A DNA stretch of 53,653 nucleotides from a virus: the IMG/VR virus record IMGVR_UViG_3300037160_000193, positions 1-53,653 of that record; one strand, 5' to 3'. Shown here one piece after another: positions 1-50,787 of the stretch (the first letter of the stretch is position 1; each line of letters begins with the position of its first letter). The position numbers and the translations under genes are program-made. The notes beneath the pieces were generated by a model. It had not been told where the DNA came from and did no database searches. It saw nothing but the letters and a program-made list of their open reading frames with translations.

Positions 1-564
1 CGCCACGTGGTTGCTGGCGTTCAGGGCCATCCCGAGGTCGCCCGAGTTGTCGGCCTTGCGCCATTTCACCGCACCGACGTTGGGCAGGCGCACCAGGCCC
101 GTGGCGGCTTTGTTTCCCGTCCCGAACTCCGCGCCGTCCTGGAACGTCTTCAGGCCGGTGATGGTGACGGCGCCGTTCTTCAGGACGTAGTTGCGCGCCG
201 CCGCCGTGCCGAGCTCGTTCTCGATGGCCAGCACCGCCGACTGGAGGGCGGTGATGAAGCCGGAAACCATGTTGGCCTTCACCGGGACGCCGGTGAGATG
301 GCTGGCGGCAACCGTCCCGAACGCCCCGCGCTGGCAACCGGTGAACTGCGTGCCGGTCTTGGCCGTGTAAACGATCAACTCGTCGTCGATGGAAAGGATG
401 CCGAACGTGGCGGCAAACCCTCCCATGGTCGAAGGGACGTTGATGGTGGAGTCGCCCGCGCCGATGGCTCCGTTGGCGGTTGTTTCGAGGGGCTTGGTCG
501 AGAACGCGTCGACGGGCGAATACAGCGTGGGTGCCGCGTCAATGGCGGTCGGAAAGTTAGACAT
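1..564 (-). CDS. Phage tail/fibre-type structural protein, 3' end off window
   Basis: This is an open minus-strand frame of 188 codons that starts at 564 (MSNFPTAIDAAPTLYSP) and runs off the left edge without a stop. The start overlaps the stop of the upstream tail gene by 8 bp, which supports translational coupling and this start choice. The visible part has short beta-strand-like segments (for example GDSTINVPSTMGGF and GILSIDDELIVY) followed by a segment rich in Ala and Asn. It has the feel of the repetitive structural proteins found at the distal end of tail operons. I see no enzymatic motif. Structural role is inferred from position and composition; the family is not recognised. Confidence 0.6.
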   Translation of the reverse strand, partial: MSNFPTAIDAAPTLYSPVDAFSTKPLETTANGAIGAGDSTINVPSTMGGFAATFGILSIDDELIVYTAKTGTQFTGCQRGAFGTVAASHLTGVPVKANMVSGFITALQSAVLAIENELGTAAARNYVLKNGAVTITGLKTFQDGAEFGTGNKAATGLVRLPNVGAVKWRKADNSGDLGMALNASNHVA

Positions 565-3500
565 TCAGTTTTCTCCGGTTCGCTTCAAAGCGATTTAGCG
601 CGCCGCCCGCCACGATCCCGACTGGCTCCGCAATCACCGATTCGACAGCGCGCGTGGCGTTGGGCTTGAAGTACTGCGCGCCGATCACCTGCATCTGGCC
701 GGCGATTTCCAGGGGAACCGGGCGGGAGTTCAGGCAAAACTGATCGAAGGCCCAGTAGCAGAAGGAGTAGAGCTTCAGCGGGAGCCACATCCCGTATGCC
801 TGCGCCATGGGCGGGTCCGGTGGGCCGTATAGCCCGGCCAGGAACATGCATTCCGAAGCGGGCCTGCCGAGCGCGGTGCTCGCGAACGTGATGGCCTGCT
901 TCATCAGGCCGGACTTCTTCTGCCAGACGTCGTAGTCGAAGCCCTCGCACCGGAAATACTTGATCCCGTAGGAGGAGTTCTTCCATTGGTTTGGCAGGTT
1001 CACATAGAAGTTGAGCGCGCGGAACTTCGCGCTGGGCTTGGGCGCACCCTGGTTCGCATCGAGGGGCCACAGGCATTCGAACACGGCGGTCGGATGGTAC
1101 CCCCGGACATAGGTGATCACGTCCTGGCAGTAGGCCCAGATGCGGTCGCGCAGAAAGTCGGCGGTTTCGTTCTGGTGAGCCGGGTCGCCAGCCGGATCAT
1201 CGGTGTTCGCCCGGAACGGCCAGATCTGGCGGCCCTTGGCCGCGGCGAAGTCGCTGATGGTGTCCTGGTCGTAGTAGGGCATCCCGCCGTGCGCGTCCTG
1301 CTGCTGATTATCGAAGTACCACCACTGCGTCTCCCCGAACTGGAGCACCACCGGCAGACCCGCCGCTTCGATCTGGTCGGCACACTCCTTGTACATCTGG
1401 CGTAGGTACGTCCGGACCCGGGTGCCGAAGTGCATCTGGTGGGACGGGACGCCGAGGTCCACGTCTGTGCCTGGCGCTACCACGCCACCGGCGTACGACA
1501 GGTACTTGGCGCGCATCGCGGCCGGAGGTAGATAACACTCCATCGAGAACGCGAACGAAGCCTTGATGCCCGCCGCCTGGAACTGGCCGGCGAGGTCGCG
1601 AATCCACTTCCGCGCGCCCTCGGTCATCACTGGCGAAACAGCGTCGATCATTTCCCAATCGCCGTCGGCGCCAACCGTGCCGAGGTGGTCCGTGAGCGTG
1701 AGCGTCACGGAGTTCGGCGCGCTCACCGCGACCCCGGTGTACGTCCATGAAGGCGCTTTCGATTGGATGCGGAGCGTGGTGCTCGATCCGAAGTTATCGT
1801 CGGCCCACACACCGGAGAACAGCCCGTTGATGATTGCGCGCATGTCGGAGACGATCCCCTGCAACGTCTCGCCGTAACCGATGGCGTGGCTCACAGTGTT
1901 GCCGCCAATCGAGAACGAGACCACGTCGCCAGCGGCGGGCGTGCCGGAGAAGACTACCGTGGCGTACGGGTAGGTGGCGTTGATGCGCCGCCGCTTGTTG
2001 TTCCAGAAGACGCCCATGTACACGTCGGCGTGGCCCTTGAAGCCGAGCTTCTGGAGTTGCCAGAGATGCCATGCCGGAGGCTTCTTGTAGCCGTGGTCGG
2101 TGTCGAAGTCCATCGCGAGGGACACGTCAGAATAGACCTTTGGCGCGTCCGGTACGTCCTGGGCTTCGAGAGGCCAGAAGTAATCGAAATAGAAGTAGTA
2201 CCCGCTGCTCGCCGCGTTCCTGGTGAACGTGGCGGTGATTTCCACCGTGTGGGTTCCGGCTCCGACCGCGCCGCGCACCTTCAAATTGGCCGTCGTCCCT
2301 CCGTATTCGCTCAGGTACAGATCATGCGTGGTTGCCACGCCATCGACGGAGACTGTGACCTTGCCGCAATCGGTGTTGAGGAAGGTCCCAAGGTAAAGAT
2401 CGTGCTGGCGCGGGTAGGAGTACCGGAGCGTGACCTTCCGAACGTCCTGCGCGTTCGACGGCGCGGTGCGCTTGGCGTGCCCTTTGCTCCACCACTGCGA
2501 CGGAAAGGCACCGCCATAGGAGTAGTTCTCCCAAAAACCCGTGTAGTTGCATCGCGCGTCCGCTTCCTCAATCCGATCCGACCCGCCACCCACCTTCAGG
2601 CTTCCATTGCCGGTGATCGCGATGTTGGAGATCGTGCATCCCCACTCGACGTTGCCGGGGAAGCCGGAGACGGGCGATAGCTTCTGGAGGCGCGCGCCCG
2701 CCGGCCACGCGCCGGGAGTCGATGCTTCGAAACCGCGCGCCACCGTGATCTGCGTTGCCGAAACCACTGACAGCAGTTGGATGCGCTCCTCCAGATTTGG
2801 AGTGCCGATGAAGTACCGGCCACCGGTGAGCTTCGAGGTGTCGTCCACCGTCCAGGTGGCATCGGAGGCCCCCACACCGGCAGCGAGGAAACACCCGTCC
2901 TGGAGGTCCTGCTCGACGTTCTCGAAACGTGGTGCGAAGACCATGTACATCTTCCGGCAGTCGCTCATCGGAACCACCGCGCCGTTCTTGTCCAGCAAGG
3001 TCTGCGTAAAGTCGAGCGTGATGTGGTATTTCGTGGTGTTGTCGCCGTTGGCGAACAGGATCGTGGCCCCGCTGCCCGCCGTCCACTGGAGTCCCTGCCC
3101 GCTGCTAACCGGCACGCCGGCCAGCGTGCGGCCGTGAGCGACAAAGACACGGTTCAGATTCCCGAGTTTCCCGTACCGCGGCGTCGCCCCGGTGCCCAGC
3201 ACAAAGGTCATAGTGATGCCGCCGGTGCTGGGGCCGCTGGCCCACGCCTGCGCGTGAATCACGCCGCTCTGGTCCGGACCAAATCGGCCAGCAACGGAGG
3301 CGCCAGCAGTGTTGATGATGTCCGACAGCTTCTGCGCCACGTGCCAGGCCTTCGTCTTGCGGGTCACGTAGGAGCCGCTTGGGTGGTCCATCGATGCACG
3401 CGCGTGGAGCGCTCCCGTGCCGACTCCGATTATGGTGGTCTGCTCCTCGTTTGTGCCGGATCGTTCGATCCAGATGCAGTCCGCGGTGGCGAAGCCCGCC

Positions 3501-4108
3501 GTGCTGCCGACCGGTAGGCTCACATCGCCCGCCTTCACCGTTGCGGTCAATTGAGTTTCAACCCGGCAGTCCGTGCTGGTCACCGTGTACCGCGTATCGC
3601 GAAAGTAGAGGTGGAGCCAGTCGATTCCGCCGTCCATGTTCTCGTCGCCGCCGATATCGATGAGGACCGTGGCGGCGGTCTCGCTGCCGGATGCCACGGT
3701 CGCGTGATCGAGCAGGCGCACGTCGTGGCTGTCGCCTGCGCCGGTGACGAACGTCATGGCGTCCCAGGAGACGGATGGGTACTTGGCCGCGTCGAGGCGG
3801 ATCGCGCCGTCGAGGGTCTGGTCATACTCGATGTCGAACTCCAGCTTCAGGCCAGAGAGATCGGTCTTCGGCAAGTGTTTCAGGCGAAGGTGGTTGAAGT
3901 AGTCGTAAGCGTTCCACCAACCAAGGACTGCGAAGTCCTCTGCGGCCTGAAAGATGCCGGAGATGGAGACACCCGTCTCGGTGGCGTCGTGGATCGTGGT
4001 GGTCGCGGCGCGTCCGGCGAAGCCCTGCAACTGGAAGTTGCGCCGTGGGTCGAAGATGTGTAGCGGTTCCGAAGACAAGATATTGCCGCCTTGGGTGGAA
4101 GACACCAC
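557..4108 (-). CDS. Large tail protein with C-terminal glycosidase-like region
   Basis: This 1183-residue protein is encoded downstream of the tail-tip gene, with only the antisense HNH gene between them. The N-terminal two thirds are beta-rich with many Gly/Thr/Asp strands, as in receptor-binding or baseplate proteins. From about residue 690 the composition changes to alternating helices and strands rich in Trp and Tyr, for example WHLWQLQKLGFKGHADVYMG. It includes QFGETQWWYF, a strand-end Glu next to aromatics as seen in clan-A glycoside hydrolase barrels. I infer a TIM-barrel-like polysaccharide-binding or degrading domain that could act on host capsule or exopolysaccharide. The start is a tandem GTG pair with AAGGG upstream and is uncertain. 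The enzymatic call is inference; no catalytic pair is proven. Confidence 0.55.
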   Translation of the reverse strand: MVSSTQGGNILSSEPLHIFDPRRNFQLQGFAGRAATTTIHDATETGVSISGIFQAAEDFAVLGWWNAYDYFNHLRLKHLPKTDLSGLKLEFDIEYDQTLDGAIRLDAAKYPSVSWDAMTFVTGAGDSHDVRLLDHATVASGSETAATVLIDIGGDENMDGGIDWLHLYFRDTRYTVTSTDCRVETQLTATVKAGDVSLPVGSTAGFATADCIWIERSGTNEEQTTIIGVGTGALHARASMDHPSGSYVTRKTKAWHVAQKLSDIINTAGASVAGRFGPDQSGVIHAQAWASGPSTGGITMTFVLGTGATPRYGKLGNLNRVFVAHGRTLAGVPVSSGQGLQWTAGSGATILFANGDNTTKYHITLDFTQTLLDKNGAVVPMSDCRKMYMVFAPRFENVEQDLQDGCFLAAGVGASDATWTVDDTSKLTGGRYFIGTPNLEERIQLLSVVSATQITVARGFEASTPGAWPAGARLQKLSPVSGFPGNVEWGCTISNIAITGNGSLKVGGGSDRIEEADARCNYTGFWENYSYGGAFPSQWWSKGHAKRTAPSNAQDVRKVTLRYSYPRQHDLYLGTFLNTDCGKVTVSVDGVATTHDLYLSEYGGTTANLKVRGAVGAGTHTVEITATFTRNAASSGYYFYFDYFWPLEAQDVPDAPKVYSDVSLAMDFDTDHGYKKPPAWHLWQLQKLGFKGHADVYMGVFWNNKRRRINATYPYATVVFSGTPAAGDVVSFSIGGNTVSHAIGYGETLQGIVSDMRAIINGLFSGVWADDNFGSSTTLRIQSKAPSWTYTGVAVSAPNSVTLTLTDHLGTVGADGDWEMIDAVSPVMTEGARKWIRDLAGQFQAAGIKASFAFSMECYLPPAAMRAKYLSYAGGVVAPGTDVDLGVPSHQMHFGTRVRTYLRQMYKECADQIEAAGLPVVLQFGETQWWYFDNQQQDAHGGMPYYDQDTISDFAAAKGRQIWPFRANTDDPAGDPAHQNETADFLRDRIWAYCQDVITYVRGYHPTAVFECLWPLDANQGAPKPSAKFRALNFYVNLPNQWKNSSYGIKYFRCEGFDYDVWQKKSGLMKQAITFASTALGRPASECMFLAGLYGPPDPPMAQAYGMWLPLKLYSFCYWAFDQFCLNSRPVPLEIAGQMQVIGAQYFKPNATRAVESVIAEPVGIVAGGALNRFEANRRKLNV

Positions 4109-12260: not shown

Positions 12261-15200
12261 TTAGCTGACAATCGTTCCGGGGCTCAACTGAAGGCTGGTG
12301 AGTTCGCGCCGGTTCGCGTTCGATTTCGTCGCGGCCATCGACGCGTTTTGTACTAGGCGCGGATTGTTGGTGATGGCCTGCACCGCCTGACCCTGGAGTA
12401 GCGCCGTCGTGGCGGGCCCGTCGAGTTGAATCACCAGCCCGCCACCGGACGGAGTGCCGGCGCCGATCTGGTCGAGTCCCGGCAGGCCTCCCAGGGCGGG
12501 AAGCGGGGTGCCGTTGTTGTACTGCGGCGACTGGAATAACGATCCGCCCGTCTCTACCAGTGAGAGGGGCGTCACTGTACCGGGCATGCCGGTCGTCTTC
12601 TGGCCGGTGGTCATGGCGTACAACTGGATCAGGTCGCGGATCTGGGGCGAGCGGATCGCCATGTCGAGGTTGCCGCCGAACCCGGATTTGGCCATGTCTA
12701 CGATCTGTTGCAACACCCCCTTATCGGCGATATCGACCCCGTAGAGTGCCTTGATCTTCTCCTTCGCCTTATCCGCAGCGCCCTTCACGAACAACCGGAC
12801 AATGCCTGCGACCGCTCCGGCGACGCCACCGATGGCCGCGCCAAGAGGACCGCCGAACTTGTACCCGATCAACGCGCCGCCCGCAGTGGTCTCCGCGACG
12901 CCGATTTTGCCGCCACGCCGAAGACCATCCATCGCCAGGAGCGCCCCACCCATGAGGGCGGCGTCCGACTTGCCAAGAGCCTGGAGCTTGTCGCCAAACG
13001 ATCCGTACTGGCTGATCCAGCCGCCCGTGGCCATGCGGCCACCGCCCATATCGACCCACTTGTTGTCGCCAAACCCGAAGAACGACTTGAGGCCGGGCAG
13101 TATGCCAGCCAAGCCCGCTTTCGAGAAGATCCCTCCAGCTGCTGGCGCGGCACCGATGCCGGCACCGCCTCCCGACGAGGACGGCACGAACGGCGGCGTC
13201 CCGCCTACCGCTGAGCCGGGGAAACGGACGATACCGCCCGATCCGAAGATAGGAGGCAGGATGGACCCAAGCCCACCACCACTGCCAGCGCCGGGGCCGG
13301 CACTGCCAGATGGCAGGAACGGGGGCGTTCCGCCAGGCGCGCCACCAGCGAACACCGGGACCGCACCGATCCCGAGGATGCCGCCCAGCCCGCCGAACAG
13401 CCCACCGCCACCCTTGCCGCTGCCGATACCGCCCTGCTGCATCTGCATGTTGGCGCCGGGGACAAACATGTTCATCAGCATCATCGCCACGCGCGAGGTC
13501 ACGACATCTTTGATAGCGGTGAGAAGCGCGGTCTTCAGCGAGTTCCCAATCGCCGACCACACCGACTGCGATTTGGTCGCGAGGGCGTCGAAAACGCCGC
13601 CAGCCTGCTGTTTGAGCGATTGGAAGATGCTCTGGTACTGGTCCGTGACGAGTTTGCGCGTGGACGTCGCGCCCTTGATCTGCGCGACGTCGATCTCAGT
13701 GGTGGTGGCCTTCTGGAGAGCGTCCTTTTCGTGCTGGCCCAGTTCGCGGATCTTGTTGCCGATCTGGTCGAGATAGGGCTCGTAGAAGATGCCCTGCGCC
13801 ATCGCCGCCTTGCGCGCCTCGTCCACCTGGCGTTCCGTCCGAGCGTCGATCTCCTCCAGTTCGATCTTGGTCCGGTCCTTCATGGCCTGGACCTCGATGG
13901 CGGTCTTGGCGTTCTCCAACGCCACTTTGTCCTGAAGCGTGCGCGCATCCACCGACTCCAGTTGGGCCAGTTGCAGATTCTTCCGCTGGTCAACCGCCGA
14001 AATCGCCGCCGAACGGCCCTGGTCGTCGATCTTGTCCTGCCAATGCGATTCCTGCTCCCATACGTAGAGGTTCTGCTTCATCGGTTCGAGATACAGAAGC
14101 TCGAACATCTTCTGGGAGCGCGCGGCCGACGCCTTCCACATCTGCTCCAGGCGGCGCGATTCCTCCTCGTTGAACTTCATGTCGAACGCCGCGAGCCTTT
14201 CCGCGGTCGCCTTGTGGATTGTTTCGAGGGTGGAAGCATTGAGCTTGAAATGTCGAACGGCGCCACTTTTCTCGTCCGTGTACGTGGACCGCTGCTCGAT
14301 CTCGCGCTTCTCCTCCTCCTTGATCTTCTCGACGCCAGCCTGACGCTCCTGCATCGACAGCAGCACGACGTTCAGCGATTCCCTCGCGGCTTGGGTTTCG
14401 GAGTGCGTGGACTCGATGATCTTCATGGAGTCCTCAATGCGGGCGCGCGCCTGGTCGTGCTCCGCGCTCTTGCGCTCCTCGACGGCGCGCATGTAGAGTT
14501 CCTGGGCCGACTTCTCGGCTTCGCCCCGCTTCTTTCGCTCCGTCGCGATCCGGTTCACCTCGTCGTCCGTGAGTTCGCCCTTGCCCAGGATCTTGAGTTT
14601 CGGAAAGCCCACGCCGCTGAAGTCGTCCCAGGAATCGCCAGGCAACATCCGCCGACCACCGATGATCTCTTTGACCTGGTCGTCGGTGTAGCCCATTTTC
14701 TTCACGTCATCGGGCTTGAGTTTCCCGCTAAAGAGATCCGTTTGGAGTCCCTTGCGGCGCATGTCGTCGAAGGTACGATCCATGCCCTCGTGCATCTTGT
14801 TGTATTCGTAGTAGATGATTGCGCCGGCGGCGACAACGCCGGTCAGCAGCAACCCGATGGGATTCGCAGTGAGCGCCAGGGCCAGCCCTTGCACGGCGCT
14901 GGCAATGCCCGCGATCTTCGTGATGATGCCGTACGTGACAATCGCGCCGGCCACGAAGATCGCCGCTTCTCCGAACTTCACCAGCCAGTCGGAGTTGTCC
15001 TTCAGAAAGCCCACAAGATCGCGCAGGTGGCCGACCCACGACCGCAAATACCCCTGGAACTGCTCGCCCACTGCTTCCTTCAGTTCGTTCACTTCGCGAG
15101 CAAGAGCAGCAGACTGCGCCTCCGCGCTTCCGGCCGCAGCGCCAGCCGCGCCCTGGATCTTCGCCGCCTCGCGCATCACCGCGTTGTAGCGGAGTTGCCG

Positions 15201-15830
15201 AACCTCGTTTTCGTCAAGCGTCCTGCCGGTCAGCTTCTCCTGGCGGTCCACCTCTTTGTTGAGATCGACGAAGATCCCCATGGTCCGGAGGCCGCGCGAC
15301 GCGCCCGACTCGATGGCCATGAGCAGCTTCTCCAGCGCCTCGCCGGGCGTGATGTTCTCGATGGCGGCGGCATCCTTGGCAACCTTCGCCAGCCCCTCGG
15401 CTTTAGATAGGTTCATGTCCGCGACCATCAGGCGGTCGACGGCATGGATGGCGTCCTGCGTTCCGAAGCCGACCTTCTTGACCGCTTCGACGGCACGGTT
15501 CGACGCCTCCGCACTCATTCCATGGGCCCTCGCGAGGGCAGCCATCGACATGCTCATCTTGTCGGTGTGGGCGGCGTGCTGCGCCGCACCGAGCGTCCAC
15601 TCCTTGGCCCAGTCCAGCGCCTTCCTGATCGAGTCCGCGAGGAGGTTGCCCGTCGCCGAGCCCTTGACCATGCTGACCGTCAAACCATCGATACCGGCGG
15701 ATGCGCCGCGCGCGGCCTTCCCCGCCGCCTGCTCCATGCTGGACAGACCTGTGTTGATGCTCTTGATCGAGGCGTTCGCCCTGTTGACGTCCACCTCGAC
15801 GACGAGTTCGAGCTTATTGTTGTCGGCCAT
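12261..15830 (-). CDS. Tail tape measure protein
   Basis: At 1189 residues this is one of the largest genes in the module. It sits between the tail chaperones and the tail-tip genes, the standard place for the protein that fixes tail length. The N-terminal 250 residues are helical. Around residues 285-350 lie hydrophobic segments (VAGAIVTYGIITKIAGIAS and ANPIGLLLTGVVAAGAII), as expected for tape measures that enter the host membrane. The middle is coiled-coil rich in Glu/Lys/Arg. The last 350 residues contain Gly/Pro-rich tracts (GGGGLFGGLGGILGIGAVP). At about 0.15 nm per residue the tail would be near 180 nm, an estimate. No clear ribosome site precedes the ATG, perhaps because the upstream DNA was changed by the TIR-gene insertion. 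Confidence 0.88.
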   Translation of the reverse strand: MADNNKLELVVEVDVNRANASIKSINTGLSSMEQAAGKAARGASAGIDGLTVSMVKGSATGNLLADSIRKALDWAKEWTLGAAQHAAHTDKMSMSMAALARAHGMSAEASNRAVEAVKKVGFGTQDAIHAVDRLMVADMNLSKAEGLAKVAKDAAAIENITPGEALEKLLMAIESGASRGLRTMGIFVDLNKEVDRQEKLTGRTLDENEVRQLRYNAVMREAAKIQGAAGAAAGSAEAQSAALAREVNELKEAVGEQFQGYLRSWVGHLRDLVGFLKDNSDWLVKFGEAAIFVAGAIVTYGIITKIAGIASAVQGLALALTANPIGLLLTGVVAAGAIIYYEYNKMHEGMDRTFDDMRRKGLQTDLFSGKLKPDDVKKMGYTDDQVKEIIGGRRMLPGDSWDDFSGVGFPKLKILGKGELTDDEVNRIATERKKRGEAEKSAQELYMRAVEERKSAEHDQARARIEDSMKIIESTHSETQAARESLNVVLLSMQERQAGVEKIKEEEKREIEQRSTYTDEKSGAVRHFKLNASTLETIHKATAERLAAFDMKFNEEESRRLEQMWKASAARSQKMFELLYLEPMKQNLYVWEQESHWQDKIDDQGRSAAISAVDQRKNLQLAQLESVDARTLQDKVALENAKTAIEVQAMKDRTKIELEEIDARTERQVDEARKAAMAQGIFYEPYLDQIGNKIRELGQHEKDALQKATTTEIDVAQIKGATSTRKLVTDQYQSIFQSLKQQAGGVFDALATKSQSVWSAIGNSLKTALLTAIKDVVTSRVAMMLMNMFVPGANMQMQQGGIGSGKGGGGLFGGLGGILGIGAVPVFAGGAPGGTPPFLPSGSAGPGAGSGGGLGSILPPIFGSGGIVRFPGSAVGGTPPFVPSSSGGGAGIGAAPAAGGIFSKAGLAGILPGLKSFFGFGDNKWVDMGGGRMATGGWISQYGSFGDKLQALGKSDAALMGGALLAMDGLRRGGKIGVAETTAGGALIGYKFGGPLGAAIGGVAGAVAGIVRLFVKGAADKAKEKIKALYGVDIADKGVLQQIVDMAKSGFGGNLDMAIRSPQIRDLIQLYAMTTGQKTTGMPGTVTPLSLVETGGSLFQSPQYNNGTPLPALGGLPGLDQIGAGTPSGGGLVIQLDGPATTALLQGQAVQAITNNPRLVQNASMAATKSNANRRELTSLQLSPGTIVS

Positions 15831-15908
15831 GGAACGTGACAGCGGGTCAGTATCTGCGAAGCGGAGAGGTTCAGTCGGAAAGAGCTTGGTCAGTGTCTCG
15901 CGGACTCG

Positions 15909-16064
15909 TCACCGGTGCGTGCCAGATGTCAGCAATGCGCGTGATACGGCCAAGTGCTCGCTGAATTCCCACGCGGCAGCCGCTGATCTTGCCCGGCGAA
16001 ACGACTCGATTTCAGTATCTTCCGTAACGGTCGGGAGCGAGCCGATCCGTCCTGGTGTCTGCAC
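15909..16064 (-). CDS. Possible 51-residue ORF between TIR gene and tape measure
   Basis: A GTG-started frame (begins MQTPGRIGSLPTVTEDTEIE) fills much of the 254-bp gap between the TIR-gene stop and the tape-measure start. It contains a helix-like stretch (SFRRARSAAAAWEFSEHLAV). It is bounded by a TAG just upstream, and no ribosome site is evident. It may be a small gene, or a leftover of the original chaperone-tape measure spacer. Confidence 0.25.
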   Translation of the reverse strand: MQTPGRIGSLPTVTEDTEIESFRRARSAAAAWEFSEHLAVSRALLTSGTHR

Positions 16065-16084
16065 GATTCCGCGAGGCTAAGGGC

Positions 16085-19000
16085 TTAGACGGGCGCCGAA
16101 ACCGAGTCAGGAGGCAATTTCGGCCCGTGACGGAGGCCGATCTTACCGACAAGTATTCGTAGATCGGGATGTAGGTCCTCGGCCTTCGTGGTCATCAGCC
16201 ATTTGAGATTTTCTTCGAAAACCCTGAGGGATACGGGATCGTTCATTCGTTCGAGAAGCTCGAAAGTGTCCCAAGCGGTCAGAGTCGTCAGCAAATGGTG
16301 AGCCTCAAGCTTACGTTTTCGAAGATCGAGTGCCTTGCTAAGCAACCTTAGGGCGTCATCGAACCGCCCCATTGCTGCATAGGTCCTCCCAAGGGCTCGA
16401 TACGTGAAGGCCATTTGCGTATGATCGGGGCCCAAGGCACCGAGACGCAATTCGAGCGTGTTCTCAAGCAGTTCCTGCGCCCCTTCCAGGTCCTTCAACT
16501 GGCACAGTGCGTCTCCAAGCGCGCTCGCTGTTCTCAACGTCTCCTCGTCCTTCTCACCTAGGATCCGGCGGCGCGCAACGAATACATCCTGGAAACGAAA
16601 AGCCGCGGCGTGATAGTCCCTCAGATCGTACAGCGCCCAAGCAAGGCGATGGCTAGCATAAAGCGTACGCGGGTTGTCCTTTCCCTGAAACTCTTCACGG
16701 AGTCGGACCGCCTCTCCCAGCGCTTGCTTCGCGGACTCGTAATCTCCGGCTGCATAGTAGGTCTGACCTAGAAACTCAATAGCATTTAATGTCCTCGGGT
16801 GATCATTCCCATGTATTTGCCGACGAAGAGAGATCTCTTCTTGGAAGAGCTTCGCTGCGACCTCATAACTGCCGACGCCTTTGTACGCGTGCGCGAGCCG
16901 GGCTATCTCGTTTACTGTCATCGGATGTCTGTCTCCGAGCGATCCGGCCTTTCGATATAAGTCAACGGCCTGAGTGTGCAGCTGAATTGAGCGAGGGGCA
17001 TCGGCTTCCATCGAGGCCAACCAACCTAAAGTACGTAGGGTATCTGGATGCAGATCGCCCCTGGCGCTCCTATAAAGATCCAATACCCGACGCATCAGCG
17101 ATGTCCCCGCGTCAACGTCTCCGCATTTCCATTGGACGATGGCGAGATTGTGCATCGCGGTAATGGTCTCCCGATCATCTTCGCCTAAATTCTGCCGATC
17201 AAAAGCCACTACCTTTTCTAGTACACGTCGAGCTTCCTTGAAATCGTTCTGACAAGATAGAGTGACAGAGAGATTGTTCAGAGCATTGATAGTTCCCTGG
17301 TGATGTTCACCCAGACTGGTTAGACAGATCCCAACGGCTTCTTCCTCCAGTCGGCGTGCGGCAGAGTACGCGGTCCCGGTCGGATCATCCCACCATATTC
17401 GTTCTCTCTCCCGGATCACGTCTGCCACCGACAACATCGGCGTCACAAGATCCACACCATTTCGATAGATCCGCCTGGAGAAGTCAAGAAGAGCTTGAGC
17501 ATACCGTTCGGCATCATCGTACAGCGCCTGCTCATAACGAAAATTCCGACCGCAAAATCCGACTCCAATGATCTGTTCCGCGAGGCCCTCACGGCGTAGT
17601 AGTTGGCGAGCAGCTCTCGTAAATAGGGCTGATAGGGAAGCGTTAGCGGAATCGAGCACGCCCTCCTGCCGAATAGCTCGGAAGAAAACCCCCTCAGCGT
17701 GTCCGATGCATGCGTTCATCAAAGGCCAGTGTGTTGGGTCCGCACACCTCTCTTTGGTCATAACCTTGCCTAGGGCTCGGCACACTCGCTGCAGTTCGGC
17801 GCGGGGCGTCTTAATACGGCTCCGGATGTAGTCGGCGGTAACACGATGCATAGTTCCCAGGACGTCCACACCTTGGTCATGGCCTCCCCGAGCGCTCAGA
17901 AACGACCTCGCCGTCAGTGCTGTGCGAATGTTTGAAGTATCCACGTCCGTGCCCAGTGCATGGAACAATTCGACTGGAATCGGCTCAGCAGCGAACCAGG
18001 CGATCATTCGGCTTGCAGATCGTACTTCGGGCGCGAGGGCCTCATAGGAAAGCGCCAAGGCTTCTGTAACGCCGCGTAGTGATCCGGGCGGGACCTGCCC
18101 GCGCAAGGCTTCCATCTGGCGGTCAACCTGCTCGGAGGGGCTCTCAAACTTGCATTTGGCCCAAAGTTCATGCGGTGTAATGGCCTTGAAGTGCAAAGCG
18201 CTGTTGAGCACTTCCAAAGCGAGGGGCAGATCACCAACCCAAGCTGCGATTTCGCTCCATTGCGCGTCGGAGAGGCATCTGCGTAACTCGGGCCCTTCAG
18301 TCAAGAGATCAATTGCCGCAGGGCGATTAAGGACATCGAGATCTAGCGACTTCACATATCCTTCCGCCACACGAACTCTACTCGTCACGAGTACAGTCAC
18401 CATTCCAACCGCTGGACAGTAGTCCGTAATGGGCCTGGGAGGCAGGCTGCTGTCGTGTGGCAGATTGTCTACGATGAAGAGCACTGGCTCTCCCGAGCCG
18501 GCGTCGGCCAGCGCGTTTCCAAGTTCCTTGCGGGCATCCCTGCCGGCTTGTAGGAACAAGTGAAGTTCGGGCGTGGCCGATTTCAGCTCGCGCAGCATGC
18601 CGTGAAACTGTCGTTGCAGTCCAGACTCGGTCTGATCGGCTGTCAGCCAAAAAATCCCACCCGGAAAGAACGTTGGGCCGAACCTCCAGGCGTATTCTAG
18701 AGCCACTCGGGTCTTTCCAAATCCACCACCACCGCCCACAGCCCCAGTGAGGGCCGCGGTCCTCGCGGGCTCACCGCGAAGCGTTGTGAGGGAGAAGTGA
18801 ATTCGAAAAAGGTCGTCTGCCCGACCCACAAAGCGCGAGTTGAGCGACGGGGGCAAAGTTATCGGAAAGTGTGGCCGAGGCATGCGCTGCGGCGGAGGCA
18901 ACGCCGTTTCGACGAGCAAGAGCTCTGCGATGGCCCGGGCGTCAAGCTGATCCAATTGCTGTCCAAGGGTCTTGGACGATTCCTGGAGCCTCTCTCGGGT

Positions 19001-19459
19001 CAACCGAACCAGATCCTCGGTTGCCGTAGCCTTTGGCCAGTTGGTCGCTCGAAGAAACGGCGGTAATCCATTCAGCAGTTCGCCCACCCCTCCCTGCGGA
19101 AGGGCAATGATGATGTGCCGGAGAGATGCTTCGAGGCGGTCAGCCTCTTGCTCTGCCCTCCTTAGCAAGCTATTGAATGGCGCAAGGGCGGTTTGAAGTT
19201 CGCGCAGGCACACCCACCGGCGAAAATAGGCCTCATCAATGAATGCGACGAAAACGCGTGCCCCTAGGATCGCTTTCGCTAGCTTCTTAGGAAAATGCTC
19301 GCCTTCGGCTATGCCTTCGGTATCAAGAAAGCCGGGACCATCGGCTCCCCCGAGCGCACGGTAAAGGGACTCGGCCGCAGAGAAACTGGTACTTCGGGCA
19401 TAGGAGATAAAGACGCTGCTTGGCGCGGACAAAGGTTCGTTTTCGACAATGGCAACCAT
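16085..19459 (-). CDS. TIR-NB-ARC-TPR STAND NTPase, probable defence protein
   Basis: This protein has about 1124 residues from the ATG at 19459; a TTG 24 bases upstream is less likely. The N-terminus is a TIR domain: VFISYAR near residue 20 and FRRWVCLREL near 85, whose Glu is the usual NADase residue. An NTPase follows with a P-loop GGGGGFGKTRVA near 240-253 and a Walker B PVLFIVDN near 325-332. From about residue 700 the protein is tandem tetratricopeptide repeats (for example GEHHQGTINALNNLSVTLS and MAFTYRALGRTYAAMGRFDDA). This is the architecture of NLR-like bacterial immune sensors: repeats sense, the NTPase oligomerises and TIR degrades NAD+. It sits on the same strand between tail chaperone and tape-measure genes, which are normally adjacent, so it is an insertion. 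A defence role is inferred. Confidence 0.85.
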   Translation of the reverse strand: MVAIVENEPLSAPSSVFISYARSTSFSAAESLYRALGGADGPGFLDTEGIAEGEHFPKKLAKAILGARVFVAFIDEAYFRRWVCLRELQTALAPFNSLLRRAEQEADRLEASLRHIIIALPQGGVGELLNGLPPFLRATNWPKATATEDLVRLTRERLQESSKTLGQQLDQLDARAIAELLLVETALPPPQRMPRPHFPITLPPSLNSRFVGRADDLFRIHFSLTTLRGEPARTAALTGAVGGGGGFGKTRVALEYAWRFGPTFFPGGIFWLTADQTESGLQRQFHGMLRELKSATPELHLFLQAGRDARKELGNALADAGSGEPVLFIVDNLPHDSSLPPRPITDYCPAVGMVTVLVTSRVRVAEGYVKSLDLDVLNRPAAIDLLTEGPELRRCLSDAQWSEIAAWVGDLPLALEVLNSALHFKAITPHELWAKCKFESPSEQVDRQMEALRGQVPPGSLRGVTEALALSYEALAPEVRSASRMIAWFAAEPIPVELFHALGTDVDTSNIRTALTARSFLSARGGHDQGVDVLGTMHRVTADYIRSRIKTPRAELQRVCRALGKVMTKERCADPTHWPLMNACIGHAEGVFFRAIRQEGVLDSANASLSALFTRAARQLLRREGLAEQIIGVGFCGRNFRYEQALYDDAERYAQALLDFSRRIYRNGVDLVTPMLSVADVIRERERIWWDDPTGTAYSAARRLEEEAVGICLTSLGEHHQGTINALNNLSVTLSCQNDFKEARRVLEKVVAFDRQNLGEDDRETITAMHNLAIVQWKCGDVDAGTSLMRRVLDLYRSARGDLHPDTLRTLGWLASMEADAPRSIQLHTQAVDLYRKAGSLGDRHPMTVNEIARLAHAYKGVGSYEVAAKLFQEEISLRRQIHGNDHPRTLNAIEFLGQTYYAAGDYESAKQALGEAVRLREEFQGKDNPRTLYASHRLAWALYDLRDYHAAAFRFQDVFVARRRILGEKDEETLRTASALGDALCQLKDLEGAQELLENTLELRLGALGPDHTQMAFTYRALGRTYAAMGRFDDALRLLSKALDLRKRKLEAHHLLTTLTAWDTFELLERMNDPVSLRVFEENLKWLMTTKAEDLHPDLRILVGKIGLRHGPKLPPDSVSAPV

Positions 19460-19590
19460 CGCTGCTACACCTGCAACTGACAATAGTACCCCGTGTTTAG
19501 CCGCGACGCATTGATCTGGACGCGTAGTCGCCGACTCGCGGAAAGTGCGGGTGGCCGGTTAGGACGCAGGTGGGTTCCGCGTTTACCATC

Positions 19591-19935
19591 TCAGGTAGGC
19601 CCGCCTCCCCTCCATGCGGGCGACTTTTCCCTCTCCAGCAGATCCCGCTCCTCCGCGATGATCAGCATGGCGCAGAACTCGTCGGCGCGCATCTCGTCAA
19701 GGCCGATGTGAACCCCCAGTTTCAGCGCCCCCATCAGGTCCAGAGTACGCCGGATGAGCAGGCCCTTCTCCGCACACTGGGCGGTGTCCAGTCGGTCCAG
19801 CGGGCAGTGGTCGCACCGCTGATCATCGTCCTCCGGCGCGTCGGGGCACAGACCGGGATCGCACAGTTCCTCTCGGCGCAGGGCCCAATGCACCAGGAAC
19901 CGAAACGACGGATCATCCGGCCACTCCCCAGCTAA
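19591..19935 (-). CDS. Tail assembly chaperone T-extension, made by -1 frameshift from G
   Basis: This 114-residue frame lies in the -1 register relative to the end of the upstream G-like gene. Its protein-like sequence begins at the G stop itself (LAGEWPDDPSFRFLVHWALR) and before any good start codon; the first in-frame GTG is internal, at 19893. The C-terminus (LKLGVHIGLDEMRADEFCAM, then LIIAEERDLLEREK) resembles the distal half of lambda-type GT chaperones that bind the tape measure. A Cys cluster (CDPGLC, CDHC) lies in the middle. The expected product is a G-T fusion of about 317 residues made in small amounts. No separate ribosome site is seen. Confidence 0.7.
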   Translation of the reverse strand, partial: LAGEWPDDPSFRFLVHWALRREELCDPGLCPDAPEDDDQRCDHCPLDRLDTAQCAEKGLLIRRTLDLMGALKLGVHIGLDEMRADEFCAMLIIAEERDLLEREKSPAWRGGGPT

Positions 19936-19940
19936 AAACT
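19930..19940 (-). promoter_or_regulatory. Probable programmed -1 frameshift site
   Basis: In the G frame the last codons read GCA AGT TTT TAG, giving the run AAGTTTTTAG. Slippage of the TTT-decoding tRNA by one base keeps a perfect TTT match and turns the TAG stop into TTA, joining G to the T frame. It is not the textbook XXXYYYZ heptamer; a stop codon in the A site could promote slippage. The position at the G/T boundary matches the frameshift conserved across long-tailed phages. Confidence 0.6.
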
Positions 19941-20543
19941 TGCTTCCCGGTCCTCTGCGAACGCGGTATCCATGGCATCGATGGCAGCTTTCACCGCGAC
20001 CGCCCGGTGGATGATGGGGACGTCGCCGACATACCCTTCGGTGGTGGTAGCGAGCTTCTTGTAGAGCGCCCCAGCGGAGCCGATGTTGATCGTTACTTCC
20101 TGCCGGCCAAAGGGCAAGTCGAGCAATCGCGCGAAGCCGCGTCGGTATTCGAACACGTCTTTTGCCGAGGGCATCTTCAGCAGGTGGACGGTAGTGGCGC
20201 CCAGGACGCGGAGAGTGACCTTGAAGGAGTCGCCATCCGGAACCACATCATCCACTTCCGCCATGCTCAACTGCTCGACCACTTTCATAGCCTCGAAGGC
20301 ATCGATCTCCGGGTCTTCGCCCTCCCGGAGTTTTGCCACCAGCGCGGCATCCACATCTTCGCCGTTGGCGACGGTGGTCTCTGAGATCCCGCGCCCCAAC
20401 TGCTTCACCAGCACCTTGCGGCGTCGCTGGCGTCCGATCCATTCGTCATCGGAGGGGAATCGCACGCGGACGGTTTTCACACCGCTCGGCGTCCGGAGGT
20501 TGATTGCGATAGGCCTGCTTGCGTCAAAAACTGGAGTTTCCAT
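19932..20543 (-). CDS. Tail assembly chaperone G-like protein
   Basis: This 203-residue protein starts at the ATG at 20543, with AAAGGA about 7 bases upstream. A longer frame without its own ribosome site overlaps the tail-tube gene and is not used. The sequence (METPVFDASRPIAINLRTPS, then VRFPSDDEWIGRQRRRKVLV and FEYRRGFARLLDLPFGRQEV) is acidic-basic and soluble, with no membrane segment. Its place between tail tube and tape measure identifies it as the G chaperone that solubilises the tape measure during tail assembly. The gene ends in the slippery sequence described separately. Confidence 0.7.
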   Translation of the reverse strand: METPVFDASRPIAINLRTPSGVKTVRVRFPSDDEWIGRQRRRKVLVKQLGRGISETTVANGEDVDAALVAKLREGEDPEIDAFEAMKVVEQLSMAEVDDVVPDGDSFKVTLRVLGATTVHLLKMPSAKDVFEYRRGFARLLDLPFGRQEVTINIGSAGALYKKLATTTEGYVGDVPIIHRAVAVKAAIDAMDTAFAEDREASF

Positions 20544-20556
20544 GGTTTGATCCTTT

Positions 20557-21597
20557 CTACTGGCAGATGGCGTCCACATTGCACTTCGCAACCGCCGTGA
20601 TGAGACCGTTAGTCGAGTCGTAGATCGGCGTCGCCTCCACCGCGACCGTAACGATCTGGTCCGTCTCGCCCACTTCCGCCGTGGCGAACGCCACCTTCTG
20701 CCAGGTGATGTCGAGCGAATTGTTGGCGTCGAACTGGAGGTGGATCACCGCCGTGCCGGTGGTTTGCGCCTTGAGCAGTGCCAACTCCGTGGAGTTGTGA
20801 TCGAAGCGGGCCACGAACTTGAGCGCGCCGGCCCGATTGCCGAATTCCAGCCGGCCTCGAATCGCTCCAGTGGTAGCGTCACCCGACGTCTGGAAGCCGG
20901 AGCCCGGAAAGAACCCCGCATCCATGCGGATGTTGTTCTTCCACGACGTTTCGAGCGAGACGATGTTCTTGCTCGTCACGTAGTCTACGCCGTTGATCGT
21001 GAGCGTCAGGGATGCGGACGGCAGGAGTTTCTCCACCGTCGCGGCCGGCATGGTGATAGCGGAAGGCTCCGTGAGCTTCCCGCTGCCGTGGAACTCGACG
21101 GTGATTTTGCTGTTGGCGCGACCAGGGCCTGAGCCAATCGTGATGGTCCATCCCTCTACCGCGCAACCGGAGAGCAGGCGGTCAATGACGGAGCCGGCGC
21201 CCGGACGGATCTGCTCCACGAAGGAGAAGTACGGCAATTCGGTCGCGTCGCCGTTCGCCGGGATCAGGGGCGTGCAGGTGTAGATCCAGTTGCCCGCCGA
21301 GCCGCTCTTCACGACCTTGCCCAGCCCGAAGCACATGGCCCACGCAGCCATCTCCGCGCTCAGGTACTTTTCGAGGGTACCGCCGGTGTCCCAGGACGTC
21401 TTGAACGTGGTAGTCGCGAATTCGTGACCTTTGCCGTACTCCTCGGCGTCGTTCTCCGTGTTCAGTTTCGGGTTTGCGAGTTGGGCGTTGAGCTTCTTCA
21501 GGCGCCACATCGCCGCGACCAGATTGGCGGTCGCGATATCGGTCTGCTTGCCGAAGCCGAAGCAGATTTGTACTTCTTGCAGTCTAGTCGTTGACAT
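20557..21597 (-). CDS. Major tail tube protein
   Basis: This 346-residue protein begins MSTTRLQEVQICFGFGKQ and is preceded by a strong AGGAGGTAA ribosome site, consistent with high expression. The sequence is dominated by beta-strands (WTITIGSGPGRANSKITVEF, SLTLTINGVDYV, AVIHLQFDANNSLDITW), the pattern of phage tail tube proteins that stack as hexamers around the tape measure. It lies between the tail terminator-like gene and the chaperones, the conserved position. The length is larger than lambda gpV but within the range for the family. Confidence 0.75.
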   Translation of the reverse strand: MSTTRLQEVQICFGFGKQTDIATANLVAAMWRLKKLNAQLANPKLNTENDAEEYGKGHEFATTTFKTSWDTGGTLEKYLSAEMAAWAMCFGLGKVVKSGSAGNWIYTCTPLIPANGDATELPYFSFVEQIRPGAGSVIDRLLSGCAVEGWTITIGSGPGRANSKITVEFHGSGKLTEPSAITMPAATVEKLLPSASLTLTINGVDYVTSKNIVSLETSWKNNIRMDAGFFPGSGFQTSGDATTGAIRGRLEFGNRAGALKFVARFDHNSTELALLKAQTTGTAVIHLQFDANNSLDITWQKVAFATAEVGETDQIVTVAVEATPIYDSTNGLITAVAKCNVDAICQ

Positions 21598-31240: not shown

Positions 31241-32227
31241 TCACACCGCCGCCTTCTGGCGTGCCTCGGCGATCTCCTCGAAGGTCCGCCCGTCGCCATC
31301 CAGAGTGGCCTTCCTGCCAGCAAGCGTTTGCCAGCGCTGGATCACTACGTCAACGTATTTGGGATCGAGCTCGATGCCGCAGCAGACCCGTTCGGTGACT
31401 TCGGCGGCGGCCAGAGTCGTACCCGATCCGAGGAAGGGTTCATAAACCAACTCGCCGCGTTTGGTGTGATTCAAGATCGGGCGACGCATCAGATCGACGG
31501 GCTTCTGCGTTGGGTGATCGTACTTCTCCTCATCCGATCCGCCCATGATGAACTTCGGCGACGGCGAGTCCCAGATCGTGGAGTTCTCGCCAGCCTTCCC
31601 GAACCAGGCCGCGTTCTTCTTCCTGACGTACCAGCAGGGCTCGTGCTGATACCAGTAGTGCGTACGTGTGAGGACGGTCCTGCCTTTGTTCCAGATAATC
31701 TGCTGGGGGTATAAGAAACCGATACGGAGCAGGCCGTTCAACACTTCCCGGGTGAAGATAGAGGCGTGCCAGACGTAGGCGATTTGCAGGCTGGGCACCA
31801 GTTCGAAGGCTTCCGACCAGTCGGCCCGCGTGTCCCCTGAGATCGTCGTCTCGGTGTGACCTTCGGTGCGCTTCTTCATGTAGCTGGCCTCGGCAGGCCC
31901 GCATCCATTCAGGCCGGCGCGGTCACGCCACTCGGTGTCGAGCTCGATGCCGTACGGCGGGTCGGTCACCAGGAGCTTTGGTTTGCGTTCTCCCAGCAGC
32001 CGTCCCACGGCTTCCGCGCTGGTGGCATCGGAACACAATACGCGGTGTTGACTCCGAACATCGCCACAGAGCCACAGGTCGTCCGGGCGGCACACCGGGT
32101 TCTCCGGAACCGGCGGCACGGCATTCGCTTGATCGTCGTCGGCGACCAACAAGAGATCGTCGATTTCTTTCGGGTCGAAACCGGTGAGGCTGAGATCAAA
32201 GTCCAACTCGCTGATGCCCAGGGACAT
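31241..32227 (-). CDS. Phage DNA methyltransferase (N4/N6), missing its ParB-like N-terminus
   Basis: This 328-residue protein has motif IV DPPYG at residues 89-93 and, later, motif I-like FLGSGTTLAAAE followed by CCGIELDPKYV. That is the motif order of beta-class adenine/cytosine-N4 methylases. The N-terminus (SELDFDLSLTGFDPKEIDDLL) is the stretch that in related phage proteins follows a ParB-like domain of about 100 residues. Here that domain is absent and the gene starts directly at the linker. The upstream primase is cut at the same point, so a deletion probably created this start. Catalytic motifs remain, so activity is possible. It would protect phage DNA from restriction. Confidence 0.8.
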   Translation of the reverse strand: MSLGISELDFDLSLTGFDPKEIDDLLLVADDDQANAVPPVPENPVCRPDDLWLCGDVRSQHRVLCSDATSAEAVGRLLGERKPKLLVTDPPYGIELDTEWRDRAGLNGCGPAEASYMKKRTEGHTETTISGDTRADWSEAFELVPSLQIAYVWHASIFTREVLNGLLRIGFLYPQQIIWNKGRTVLTRTHYWYQHEPCWYVRKKNAAWFGKAGENSTIWDSPSPKFIMGGSDEEKYDHPTQKPVDLMRRPILNHTKRGELVYEPFLGSGTTLAAAEVTERVCCGIELDPKYVDVVIQRWQTLAGRKATLDGDGRTFEEIAEARQKAAV

Positions 32228-37557: not shown

Positions 37558-38835
37558 TTACGAACGACGGCTGGTTTTTAGGATCACGACACTCTCTCGT
37601 AAGTGTAGAGAACGGCTGACTTCATCGCCGAGCTTGTTTAGATGCTGTCCAGAACTGCGTAGATGCCTGATGACGCCAACCTCACTCAAGTACCATCCGG
37701 AGCGTTCTGCAATTTCGGCGATGATGAAATCGACCGGAACTTCAACGCCGGCATAGGCAGAGGTTGCAACTACTATCCAGACGGCCGCTCCAGGGAGCGC
37801 CAGGCGCCTCAATCGAAGAAGTATCCGCTCCATATCCTCGAAGTAGGCCTGAATCATGGCGGGTATCCTGTGGTCCCAAAGAATCTCTGAGCGGGAACGC
37901 ACTTCCGTCATGACATTAGTGAATAGTTGGCCGAAAGACGCCCGCTCCGGCGGCTCCCAGTTTGCCTGCACATGAGACCTTATGGTGGATTTTCGAATCG
38001 TCGCCAGTTCCCTGTTCGAGCCAACGAATCTTCCAAGGAAGAGTTCAGGTCGGTATACGTCTGAATAGTCGAATGAATTCAAATATGGTGGTGAAGTCAC
38101 GCTAAGCTTGAATCTCTGCCCATCCGTCGCCAACACCTTCCGAGCATCACCCAAAATAACTTTATGGTCGCCGCTCGGGGTATCCGACAGCCTCACGTCA
38201 GAGCAGACATCTTCAACTCGATGCTCGAACGAATCAAGAAAACTCGGCCTTCCGAACCCTATGCTCTTCCAATCTTTCCGGTATCGAAGGCACTTGCCGT
38301 CCGCCGTCGCATTGCAGTTGTCCATCGCAGCACCAAGGAGGCAGAGTCTCAGAAGATCGCCCGCCGGGCCCGGACAATCAGTCAATGATGTCCACCCCCC
38401 TTCGAAAGAACGAAGCACGGATCGATTGAATAGCCACTTCACCGAATCCTTATTCTCCGAGAATGTAGAGTACGACTCAAGTGAGGACCTCGCGCCGTGC
38501 CGCACGCCACGCGTAGCGGTGGAGAGGTGCTTCCGGAGTGTTGACGAGCGGCATGTAAGAAGCTTGGTCCGAGAAACGAACGCGAGAAATGGATTGACCT
38601 CAACACCGAATGCTGCGCGGCCCTGCAAGCTAGCGCTCAGAGGCACAGTCCCGCTGCCACAAAACGGATCGAGGACCGCGTCGTCCTTGGCGAATGTGAC
38701 AGTCTCCGCTGCTGATTTGAACAGCGTCGGAGAAAACCCCTCTTTGATGACGTACCAGCGGTGTCTCGGCGAGGTCGAGCAGTCATCCGCCGTCGAGCAT
38801 CCGGTCCCGCGTAATTTGAAGGATTCATTTAACAT
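37558..38835 (-). CDS. DNA methyltransferase of ABC/nuclease cargo operon
   Basis: This 425-residue protein has the AdoMet motif VLDPFCGSGTVPL at residues 54-66 followed by FGVEVNPF. Motif IV TSPPYLNSFDY is at 247-257, continuing SDVYRPELFLG. The N-terminal HRWYVIKEGFSPTLF is also typical of this class, which methylates amino groups in DNA (N6-adenine or N4-cytosine). The gene starts 10 bp after the nuclease gene, so the two are co-transcribed. The pairing suggests restriction-modification: methylation marks self DNA and the nuclease plus ABC ATPase attack unmarked DNA. The AT-richer codons compared with the phage genes suggest a different origin. Confidence 0.8.
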   Translation of the reverse strand: MLNESFKLRGTGCSTADDCSTSPRHRWYVIKEGFSPTLFKSAAETVTFAKDDAVLDPFCGSGTVPLSASLQGRAAFGVEVNPFLAFVSRTKLLTCRSSTLRKHLSTATRGVRHGARSSLESYSTFSENKDSVKWLFNRSVLRSFEGGWTSLTDCPGPAGDLLRLCLLGAAMDNCNATADGKCLRYRKDWKSIGFGRPSFLDSFEHRVEDVCSDVRLSDTPSGDHKVILGDARKVLATDGQRFKLSVTSPPYLNSFDYSDVYRPELFLGRFVGSNRELATIRKSTIRSHVQANWEPPERASFGQLFTNVMTEVRSRSEILWDHRIPAMIQAYFEDMERILLRLRRLALPGAAVWIVVATSAYAGVEVPVDFIIAEIAERSGWYLSEVGVIRHLRSSGQHLNKLGDEVSRSLHLRESVVILKTSRRS

Positions 38836-39894: not shown

Positions 39895-40518
39895 CTATGT
39901 GGTATCTCCTGAACCCGCGGCAATTAGATCGTCTTGCATTTCCGAAGCGCGCCACAGATAACCAAGCCAGACTGTCGCCGGAATCAGCAGATCCTTGTGT
40001 TCGACGCCGACGGTGTGTCCTAGCGCCGCGAACTGGTCATAGAGCCGCGGCAGATACGGACCGTCGAGGAGGGGGCGCGTTGTCGCCAGACGGCTTGTAG
40101 GCTTTAGCGTGGGTTCCTGAGTGAGCGCGTGCCGGATCACGCCAACTGGCATAGTCAAGCTGCTTGAGCAAGCAGGCTCAAGGTACGTAGCGCGTTCGCG
40201 ATTTTGGAACAGTTCCTGGAATGTCGACAGTTCTGCCCGCCCGCTGTCCGTGATGCCGATGTCTCCTTCCGAAACGTGAAGATACCCGGTCGATGCCATC
40301 GCGCGCACGGCCCCCTCGATTTCCGGGCTGAATGGCGACCCGTCTCGTGTGCCTGCGAAGCCGTATCCCCAATCGGACACCGGCTGGCCGCGATAGAGCG
40401 ACAGGAGACATGCCAGATAGGCGAACGCGTGAATTTCGGCTACGACTGGGCGACGGATGTTCGTGCCCAGCGCGGCAGAAATGTACAAGCTGTCGAACGC
40501 AGCGTAAGGGTTAACCAT
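39895..40518 (-). CDS. Small middle-component-like protein of ABC system
   Basis: This 207-residue protein starts at the ATG at 40518, 8 bp inside the ABC ATPase gene, so translation is coupled. It is a mostly helical protein with a winged-helix-like centre (SPEIEGAVRAMASTGYLHVS, EGDIGITDSGRAELSTFQEL). Size, position and this pattern recall the middle components of ABC three-component (ABC-3C) defence systems, which link an SMC-like ATPase to an effector. I cannot verify family membership from sequence alone. Confidence 0.5.
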   Translation of the reverse strand: MVNPYAAFDSLYISAALGTNIRRPVVAEIHAFAYLACLLSLYRGQPVSDWGYGFAGTRDGSPFSPEIEGAVRAMASTGYLHVSEGDIGITDSGRAELSTFQELFQNRERATYLEPACSSSLTMPVGVIRHALTQEPTLKPTSRLATTRPLLDGPYLPRLYDQFAALGHTVGVEHKDLLIPATVWLGYLWRASEMQDDLIAAGSGDTT

Positions 40519-42991: not shown

Positions 42992-43437
42992 CTCCCCCGC
43001 CGAGCCGCAATGCCTTCCGAACCCATGGTGGTCGAGGGGTTGCCGAGCAGCTCGGTCCAGAGCCTTCGCTGTTCGCTCCAGCCGACGACCGCTGTTACCT
43101 GGCGGAGGCAGCGCTCGGGTACGTTGGCCTGGGCAACGAGAGCCGACGCGGTCAGAAGCACCTCTTGAAGATCCGGTGCGAGGTTGAGCATGTTCATGAT
43201 TTGGGTGATTCGCGCCCGCGTGACGAAGCCGAGCCGGGCGAGGTCGGCGTAGTCGCGCACCTCGCCACGGTCGACCATGTCTTGAAACTTGACTGCGAGC
43301 GCCATCAGGCGCGCGAATCGCGGAACGCGCGGCGGTTCAGGCAACTTGGGACCGGTGTTCCGACGTTGACCGCCTTTGCGGCTTGTCGCCGGGGCGATGC
43401 TGACTTCGATCTGCAGCGTCCCATTGAGGCCGCTCAT
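42988..43437 (-). CDS. ParB/KorB-like helix-turn-helix protein of recombinase cassette
   Basis: This 149-residue protein starts 4 bp inside the recombinase stop (ATGA). The central region (VPRFARLMALAVKFQDMVDR, DYADLARLGFVTRARITQIM, NMLNLAPDLQEVLL) is a helix-turn-helix like that of ParB proteins. The N-terminus is basic and disordered. Such a gene commonly trails the DUF2924-serine recombinase pair in integrated elements. It may help direct recombination or control the operon. Confidence 0.65.
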   Translation of the reverse strand: MSGLNGTLQIEVSIAPATSRKGGQRRNTGPKLPEPPRVPRFARLMALAVKFQDMVDRGEVRDYADLARLGFVTRARITQIMNMLNLAPDLQEVLLTASALVAQANVPERCLRQVTAVVGWSEQRRLWTELLGNPSTTMGSEGIAARRGR

Positions 43438-50522: not shown

Positions 50523-50732
50523 ATGGGAGCCCAACCAAGTCAGGCGGGAATACTGACGGTGCCTGAAGTCGCGCAGGAACTTCGATGCTCCAAGGCGCAT
50601 GTGCACAATCTCATTCACGGCAAGGTGCTCGGTGTCACGCCCCTGCCCTCCCTGTGGCTGGGACGCCGCCGCCTCATTTTGCGCGCGAATTTCGAGGAAT
50701 GGCTCCGCGCATGCGAAAAATACCCCGGATAA
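50523..50732 (+). CDS. Excisionase-like helix-turn-helix protein
   Basis: This 69-residue protein (GILTVPEVAQELRCSKAHVH, NLIHGKVLGVTPLPSLWLGR, RRLILRANFEEWLRACE) matches the MerR-like HTH_17 fold of excisionases. It lies 55 bp before the integrase, the usual xis-int order. It would bend DNA at the attachment site and favour excision. Confidence 0.8.
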   Translation: MGAQPSQAGILTVPEVAQELRCSKAHVHNLIHGKVLGVTPLPSLWLGRRRLILRANFEEWLRACEKYPG

Positions 50733-50787
50733 ATGCTATGATCCGATCGAACCGGATGACCGCCGCAGGCGCACGGAAAGGACAAAC

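Follow-up and report, generated by a model that had tools for sequence, protein, structure and literature searches.

A predicted TIR-NLR-type anti-phage gene as exchangeable cargo between the tail chaperone and tape measure genes of a temperate Bryobacterales siphophage

The window considered here is the whole of IMG/VR virus record IMGVR_UViG_3300037160_000193 (positions 1 to 53,653; 53,653 nucleotides), whose relatives point to a host in the Bryobacterales (Acidobacteriota). Between the genes of the tail assembly chaperone (G and its frameshifted product GT) and the tape measure protein (TMP) it carries a gene for a protein composed of a TIR domain, a STAND/NB-ARC-like NTPase and tetratricopeptide repeats (TPRs). 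We believe that this gene is likely to be a single-gene TIR-NLR-type anti-phage (abortive-infection) system, carried as accessory cargo (a “moron”) by a temperate siphophage in a GT/TMP slot common to its whole lineage. We also lean, with distinctly less assurance, towards a wider reading, in which temperate Acidobacteriota phages in general have at the GT/TMP junction a hotspot for defence and toxin-antitoxin genes that had so far gone unrecognised. Two translationally coupled tail genes would be parted there again and again by interchangeable immunity cassettes, some of them encoding NLR-like or other TIR proteins, which would be swapped through conserved flanks. The gene, its domains and the slot are as follows.

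16085-19483, minus strand: TIR - STAND/NB-ARC-like NTPase - TPR gene, 1,132 aa from TTG 19483 (open frame, Pfam TIR_2 and TPR matches, homologs).
18944-19417, minus strand: TIR domain, approximately residues 23-180 (Pfam match, alignment to RUN1).
17693-18901, minus strand: STAND/NB-ARC-like NTPase, approximately residues 195-597 (conserved motifs, FxSxx_TPR match, weak NB-ARC match in one homolog).
16289-17326, minus strand: TPR array of the kinesin-light-chain type, approximately residues 720-1065 (Pfam TPR_12 and TPR_10, kinesin light chain matches).
15831-19590, no strand: cargo slot, from the stop of the GT extension to the TMP start, 3,760 nt in the window.

The slot was studied in 132 related phage and prophage loci. 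Viral loci (n = 88, a few contigs being present twice) were collected with the TMP and tail-tube proteins, the best 80 of 167 viral matches being kept, and 44 loci from bacterial genomes were collected with the tail-tube alignment. All 44 are titled as Acidobacteriota groups, mostly Bryobacterales/Solibacter. Some related loci sit in long chromosomal contigs, such as AP025252.1 (6.2 Mb) and JAHCHE010000001 (562 kb), which shows the lineage to be temperate. The TIR-NTPase-TPR gene is absent from all 132 loci. The survey of related prophages at this junction, suggested in the preliminary description, thereby shows that the lineage does not carry the gene as a fixed component.

In relatives free of cargo, GT overlaps the start of TMP by 8-20 nt (usually 11), so the separation of the two genes in the window is real rather than a matter of chance; in filled relatives they are separated by 0.27-4.5 kb of differing DNA. 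The cargo DNA falls into 28 unrelated clusters, and besides the TIR gene the slot takes at least 27 genes unrelated to it. Gaps longer than 250 nt were found at 53 of 102 GT/TMP junctions, compared with 0-5% at eight tested junctions upstream in the head/tail module; within the head/tail junctions tested, the looseness is thus specific to the site. Of the 92 dereplicated loci on the tail-tube protein tree, 45 have no cargo and 47 have some; the state changed at least 20 times, as counted on the uncertain topology of a quick tree with many open forks. The supported clade of nine that includes the window contains eight filled loci with eight different cargos and one empty locus. The left junction sequence catggaggggaggcgggcctacctga is nearly the same in the window and in the independently assembled loci L015 and L016, all with unrelated cargo, as expected if cassettes are exchanged between shared flanks.

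The gap between TMP and the following DUF2460 gene is also often long (49 of 77). It was rejected as an equal hotspot, since in the loci inspected it mostly holds one conserved gene of 148-176 aa with the motif NANPGN-R-WRD (L063:15183-15629, plus strand; also L043, L029 and L014). This gene is absent in the window (12261-12271), and L045 has a helix-turn-helix (HTH) antitoxin-like ORF between TMP and DUF2460.

The cargo of the GT/TMP slot includes toxin-antitoxin genes (HicAB, HigA-type, VapC-type); HicAB fills the slot of the Bryobacterales prophage F-183, locus L112. Pfam recognised DUF6883, DUF4926, the HTH antitoxin type, HicA, a zinc-ribbon and an REase-ARP nuclease; an nSTAND1 ATPase, an M48 peptidase, a metallo-beta-lactamase fold and an outer-membrane barrel; and TIR, a YhcG nuclease, AIPR, an HSDR_N-like domain, PIN and a poly(A)-polymerase head. 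Several cargos match PADLOC families. In a plain tally, many of the recognised cargos belong to defence or toxin-antitoxin families and others are of different kinds. Most of the recognised cargo (orientation being taken from Pfam-recognised genes) is antisense to the tail genes and should therefore have its own promoters; the window gene is among the minority co-oriented with them.

Three observations on individual loci can be added. A different TIR protein of 402 aa (TIR_2, E 6e-28) occupies the slot at L101:12026-13234 (minus strand), in a phage with a tail-tube protein 97% identical over the best segment; between this protein and that of the window, the TIR regions are only weakly similar (E 0.017). 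A TrlF-family ATPase (667 bits, NCBIfam) is found at L128:10813-13911 (minus strand), in the slot of a Bryobacteraceae prophage. Long slot ORFs of 231-541 aa in L012, L018, L019, L027 and L117 have no convincing Pfam, NCBIfam or PADLOC match and are candidate new defence or toxin genes.

A hotspot at the GT/TMP junction was not reported in the literature searched, which is not a proof of absence. It is of a known kind: the P2-like phage and P4 hotspots (PMC9122126) and the Tai moron loci upstream of the packaging module (PMC11364771) also present a fixed position in a temperate element where unrelated defence cargo turns over. Unlike those sites, the slot considered here is the GT/TMP junction, at which the genes overlap when it is empty. 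The host phylum, Acidobacteriota, is new for such a hotspot. The group (i) Bryobacterales proviruses, which resemble the present phages in being temperate Caudoviricetes of the same host order (the likeness being drawn at the level of host order), are described without mention of a hotspot of this sort in the section consulted (PMC11924767).

The gene noted in the preliminary description is present, and it is intact. The open frame listed on the minus strand has 1,132 codons; position 19459, initially taken as the end of the gene, is an in-frame ATG eight codons inside the TTG start. The TIR_2 match covers residues 24-101 (Pfam, E 4.5e-10). Alignment to plant RUN1 (6o0w/7s2z), at a similarity of about 20 bits, pairs E95 (19199-19201) with the catalytic Glu, which is Ala in 7s2z; E95 is invariant among the homologs described below, and a catalytic-type Glu is thus retained. 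The putative NTPase is recognised by motifs conserved in the homologs: Walker A GGGGFGKT (18710-18733), Walker B VLFIVDN, the sensor VTVLVTSR, the GLPL-like GDLPLALEVL and the MHD-like MHRV. A PDB profile search with this region gave no match, and an AlphaFold model of 662 residues from a single sequence had a pLDDT of 37, too low for use. The TPRs are matched by TPR_12 (E 6e-53) and TPR_10 (E 2e-38). Searched against PADLOC-DB 2.0.0, the protein matched the ThsB TIR at 1.5e-5 and, along its TPRs, PDC-M71B. Judged from its sequence, it adds a new protein to an architecture already known.

The composition of the gene is foreign to the tail operon: the GC content at third codon positions (GC3) is 0.587, compared with 0.72-0.84 in the adjoining tail genes. 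Of 257 Bryobacterales genomes searched, four hold close homologs (41-54%, E<=1e-30), and a search of 399 genomes of the host class added none. Two of the four lie among ordinary chromosomal genes and one beside a transporter-like gene, the fourth contig being too short to tell; wherever the context is visible, the homologs are outside a phage tail module. The phage tail-tube gene is absent from three of the four genomes, and one homolog (G160) is frameshifted. Protein and profile searches of IMG/VR produced no homolog of the window protein; further matches were to Wolbachia WO proteins, in their TPR parts only, and to distant plasmid STAND-TPR proteins. Considering that four Bryobacterales genomes hold homologs, the simplest reading is a probable origin of the gene in the host gene pool.

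We presume a mechanism modelled on the TIR-NLR of P4 satellites, a single-gene system from a P4-satellite hotspot whose action against several coliphages has been validated (Rousset et al. 2022, PMC9122126). The TPRs would respond, in a lysogen, to some product of a phage entering the cell; oligomerisation of the NTPase would follow, and the TIR domains would assemble and hydrolyse NAD+. The cell would stop or die before the competitor matures, and the sacrifice of the infected cell would protect sister lysogens from competing phages. Both proteins have an N-terminal TIR domain and C-terminal TPRs, with a STAND NTPase in the centre that is putative in the window protein, and both are encoded by a single gene carried in a defence hotspot of a phage-type element. 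The comparison is one of architecture, and the settings differ: the window gene lies in the tail operon of a tailed phage of Acidobacteriota, and the P4 gene lies in a satellite next to cos. The plant TIR-NB-ARC receptors, represented by RUN1, can be aligned in the TIR domain through the catalytic Glu and are similar in their NLR layout; the window protein has TPRs in place of LRRs.

Several points weigh against the proposal of an anti-phage system. The window is a virus record, and the lineage is without an isolate among 50,697 phage records, none of which matches its tail-tube or tape measure proteins. Pfam does not call the NTPase domain (NB-ARC/NACHT) in the window protein, so the domain search proposed earlier confirmed TIR_2 and TPR and left NB-ARC without a call; the nearest is a weak NB-ARC match in the homolog L167 (Pfam, E 0.02). 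The gene is co-oriented with the late genes, and no sigma-70-type promoter was recognised just upstream, although consensus scans say little for Acidobacteriota. Finally, the outer-membrane barrel, M48 peptidase and carboxypeptidase-regulatory-like cargos are not obviously defensive. On the other side, the immune-type (NLR-like) reading proposed initially gains from the catalytic-type Glu, the absence of the gene from relatives, the foreign composition and the defence-bearing site.

One alternative relates to expression. The gene could be a late weapon or trap, co-transcribed with the virion genes in lytic growth only and directed at co-infecting phages or satellites, with no role in the lysogen. 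It lies on the strand of the tail operon about 107 nt past the GT stop, and no promoter was recognised in between. The scans for promoters have the limit just mentioned, however; most of the Pfam-recognised cargo of the slot is antisense, which implies expression of its own, and a death effector made in the late phase of the phage itself would need strong restraint. We consider this alternative rather improbable.

We give about the same low credence to a second one, in which the TIR-STAND-TPR protein serves signalling or regulation and has no part in phage defence; it might, for instance, be related to the NTPase-TPR part of the FxSxx-COOH system. The NCBIfam model FxSxx_TPR (NF040586) matches residues 212-597 with E 4e-83, and the N-terminus has an FxsC TIR-like match (NCBIfam, E 1e-6). 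The score of 280 bits is nevertheless under the model cut-off of 300, the TIR domain is fused to the rest of the protein, no other part of an FxSxx system was recognised beside the gene, and the slot is rich in defence and toxin-antitoxin genes.

It is very unlikely that the protein is a sensor matched to the adjoining tape measure or chaperone, with a position that is functional in guarding or exploiting tail assembly. The adjacency to tail genes is suggestive, and there is a known case of a prophage protein that recognises a tape measure protein. This protein, Tab of Pseudomonas phage JBD26 (PMC10884400), is likewise encoded by a defence moron inside a prophage late operon. Tab is, however, an 83-residue assembly blocker encoded between terminase genes, is not an NLR and has no TIR domain. 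Since the same junction takes cargo of 28 unrelated clusters, among which are HicAB, VapC-type and outer-membrane proteins, the chaperone-TMP position has no specific meaning for the TIR protein, and nothing ties the sensor to either neighbour; where their context is visible, the homologs elsewhere do not adjoin tail genes either. In this respect the preliminary description, which attached significance to the position, is not upheld. An assembly chimera or a decayed passenger, which the single record and the foreign composition might suggest, is hardly credible given the 1,132-codon open frame, the intact flanking genes and the left junction closely common to L015 and L016, which hold other cargo there.

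The neighbouring tail genes were identified by synteny, weak PHROG matches and frameshift or overlap features. The order of transcription, from right to left, is terminase, portal, capsid, tail-tube-like protein, chaperone G, orf100, the TIR gene, TMP and the DUF2460 protein. The features adjoining the slot are listed below.

20557-21597, minus strand: tail-tube-like protein, the lineage marker (69-97% identical in related loci).
19932-20543, minus strand: tail assembly chaperone G, from ATG 20543 behind AGAAAGGA, with a longer ORF to 20591 (position, conservation, frameshift signature, start context).
19935-19941, minus strand: putative -1 slippery site AAGTTTT, directly before the G stop TAG (19932-19934).
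19591-19893, minus strand: T extension of the tail chaperone (orf100), reached by a -1 frameshift from G, its frame extending upstream through the G stop.
12261-15830, minus strand: TMP, 1,189 aa (synteny; weak PHROG tape-measure match, E 2e-4), 62-92% identical in related phages.

We rejected orf100 as a separate gene: the T frame is open through the G stop at an offset of -1 in all 115 related loci considered, which makes it a frameshift extension of G. A canonical heptamer (CCCAAAC or AAATTTT) occurs in 97 of these 115, in nearly every case at the G stop or immediately before it; the clade of the window carries the non-canonical variant AAGTTTT. The G and T frames of the window and its relatives represent the G/GT chaperone arrangement of tailed phages. 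As orf100 is part of GT, the location of the TIR gene was described exactly: the G/GT frameshift pair is upstream, TMP is downstream, and in empty relatives the two overlap.

Elsewhere in the window we note a gene for a large serine recombinase (43434-44972, minus strand; Resolvase, Recombinase and Zn ribbon), a tyrosine-integrase-like gene (50599-51894, plus strand; Phage_int_M and Arm-DNA-bind_3) and a gene for a large tail protein with a match to the TIM-barrel of a non-contractile tail sheath (557-4108, minus strand; Pfam, E 9e-8). The early region contains two DNA methylase-like genes and an AAA_23/SMC-like ATPase gene (31241-32227, 37558-38835 and 40511-42532, all on the minus strand), the latter two with a GC3 of about 0.6, like the TIR gene.

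Most of what is known of single-gene TIR-NLRs, and of prophage defence hotspots, comes from enterobacteria. The present proposal would place both in phages of Acidobacteriota, a dominant soil phylum, and at a junction, GT/TMP, that phage biologists treat as nearly inseparable. This raises the question of how these phages tolerate the loss of the GT-TMP overlap and how they avoid the action of their own cargo. Being fixed and easily recognised, the slot from the GT stop to the TMP start may serve as a simple handle in the search for new anti-phage genes, considering that many of the 28 clusters have no known function.

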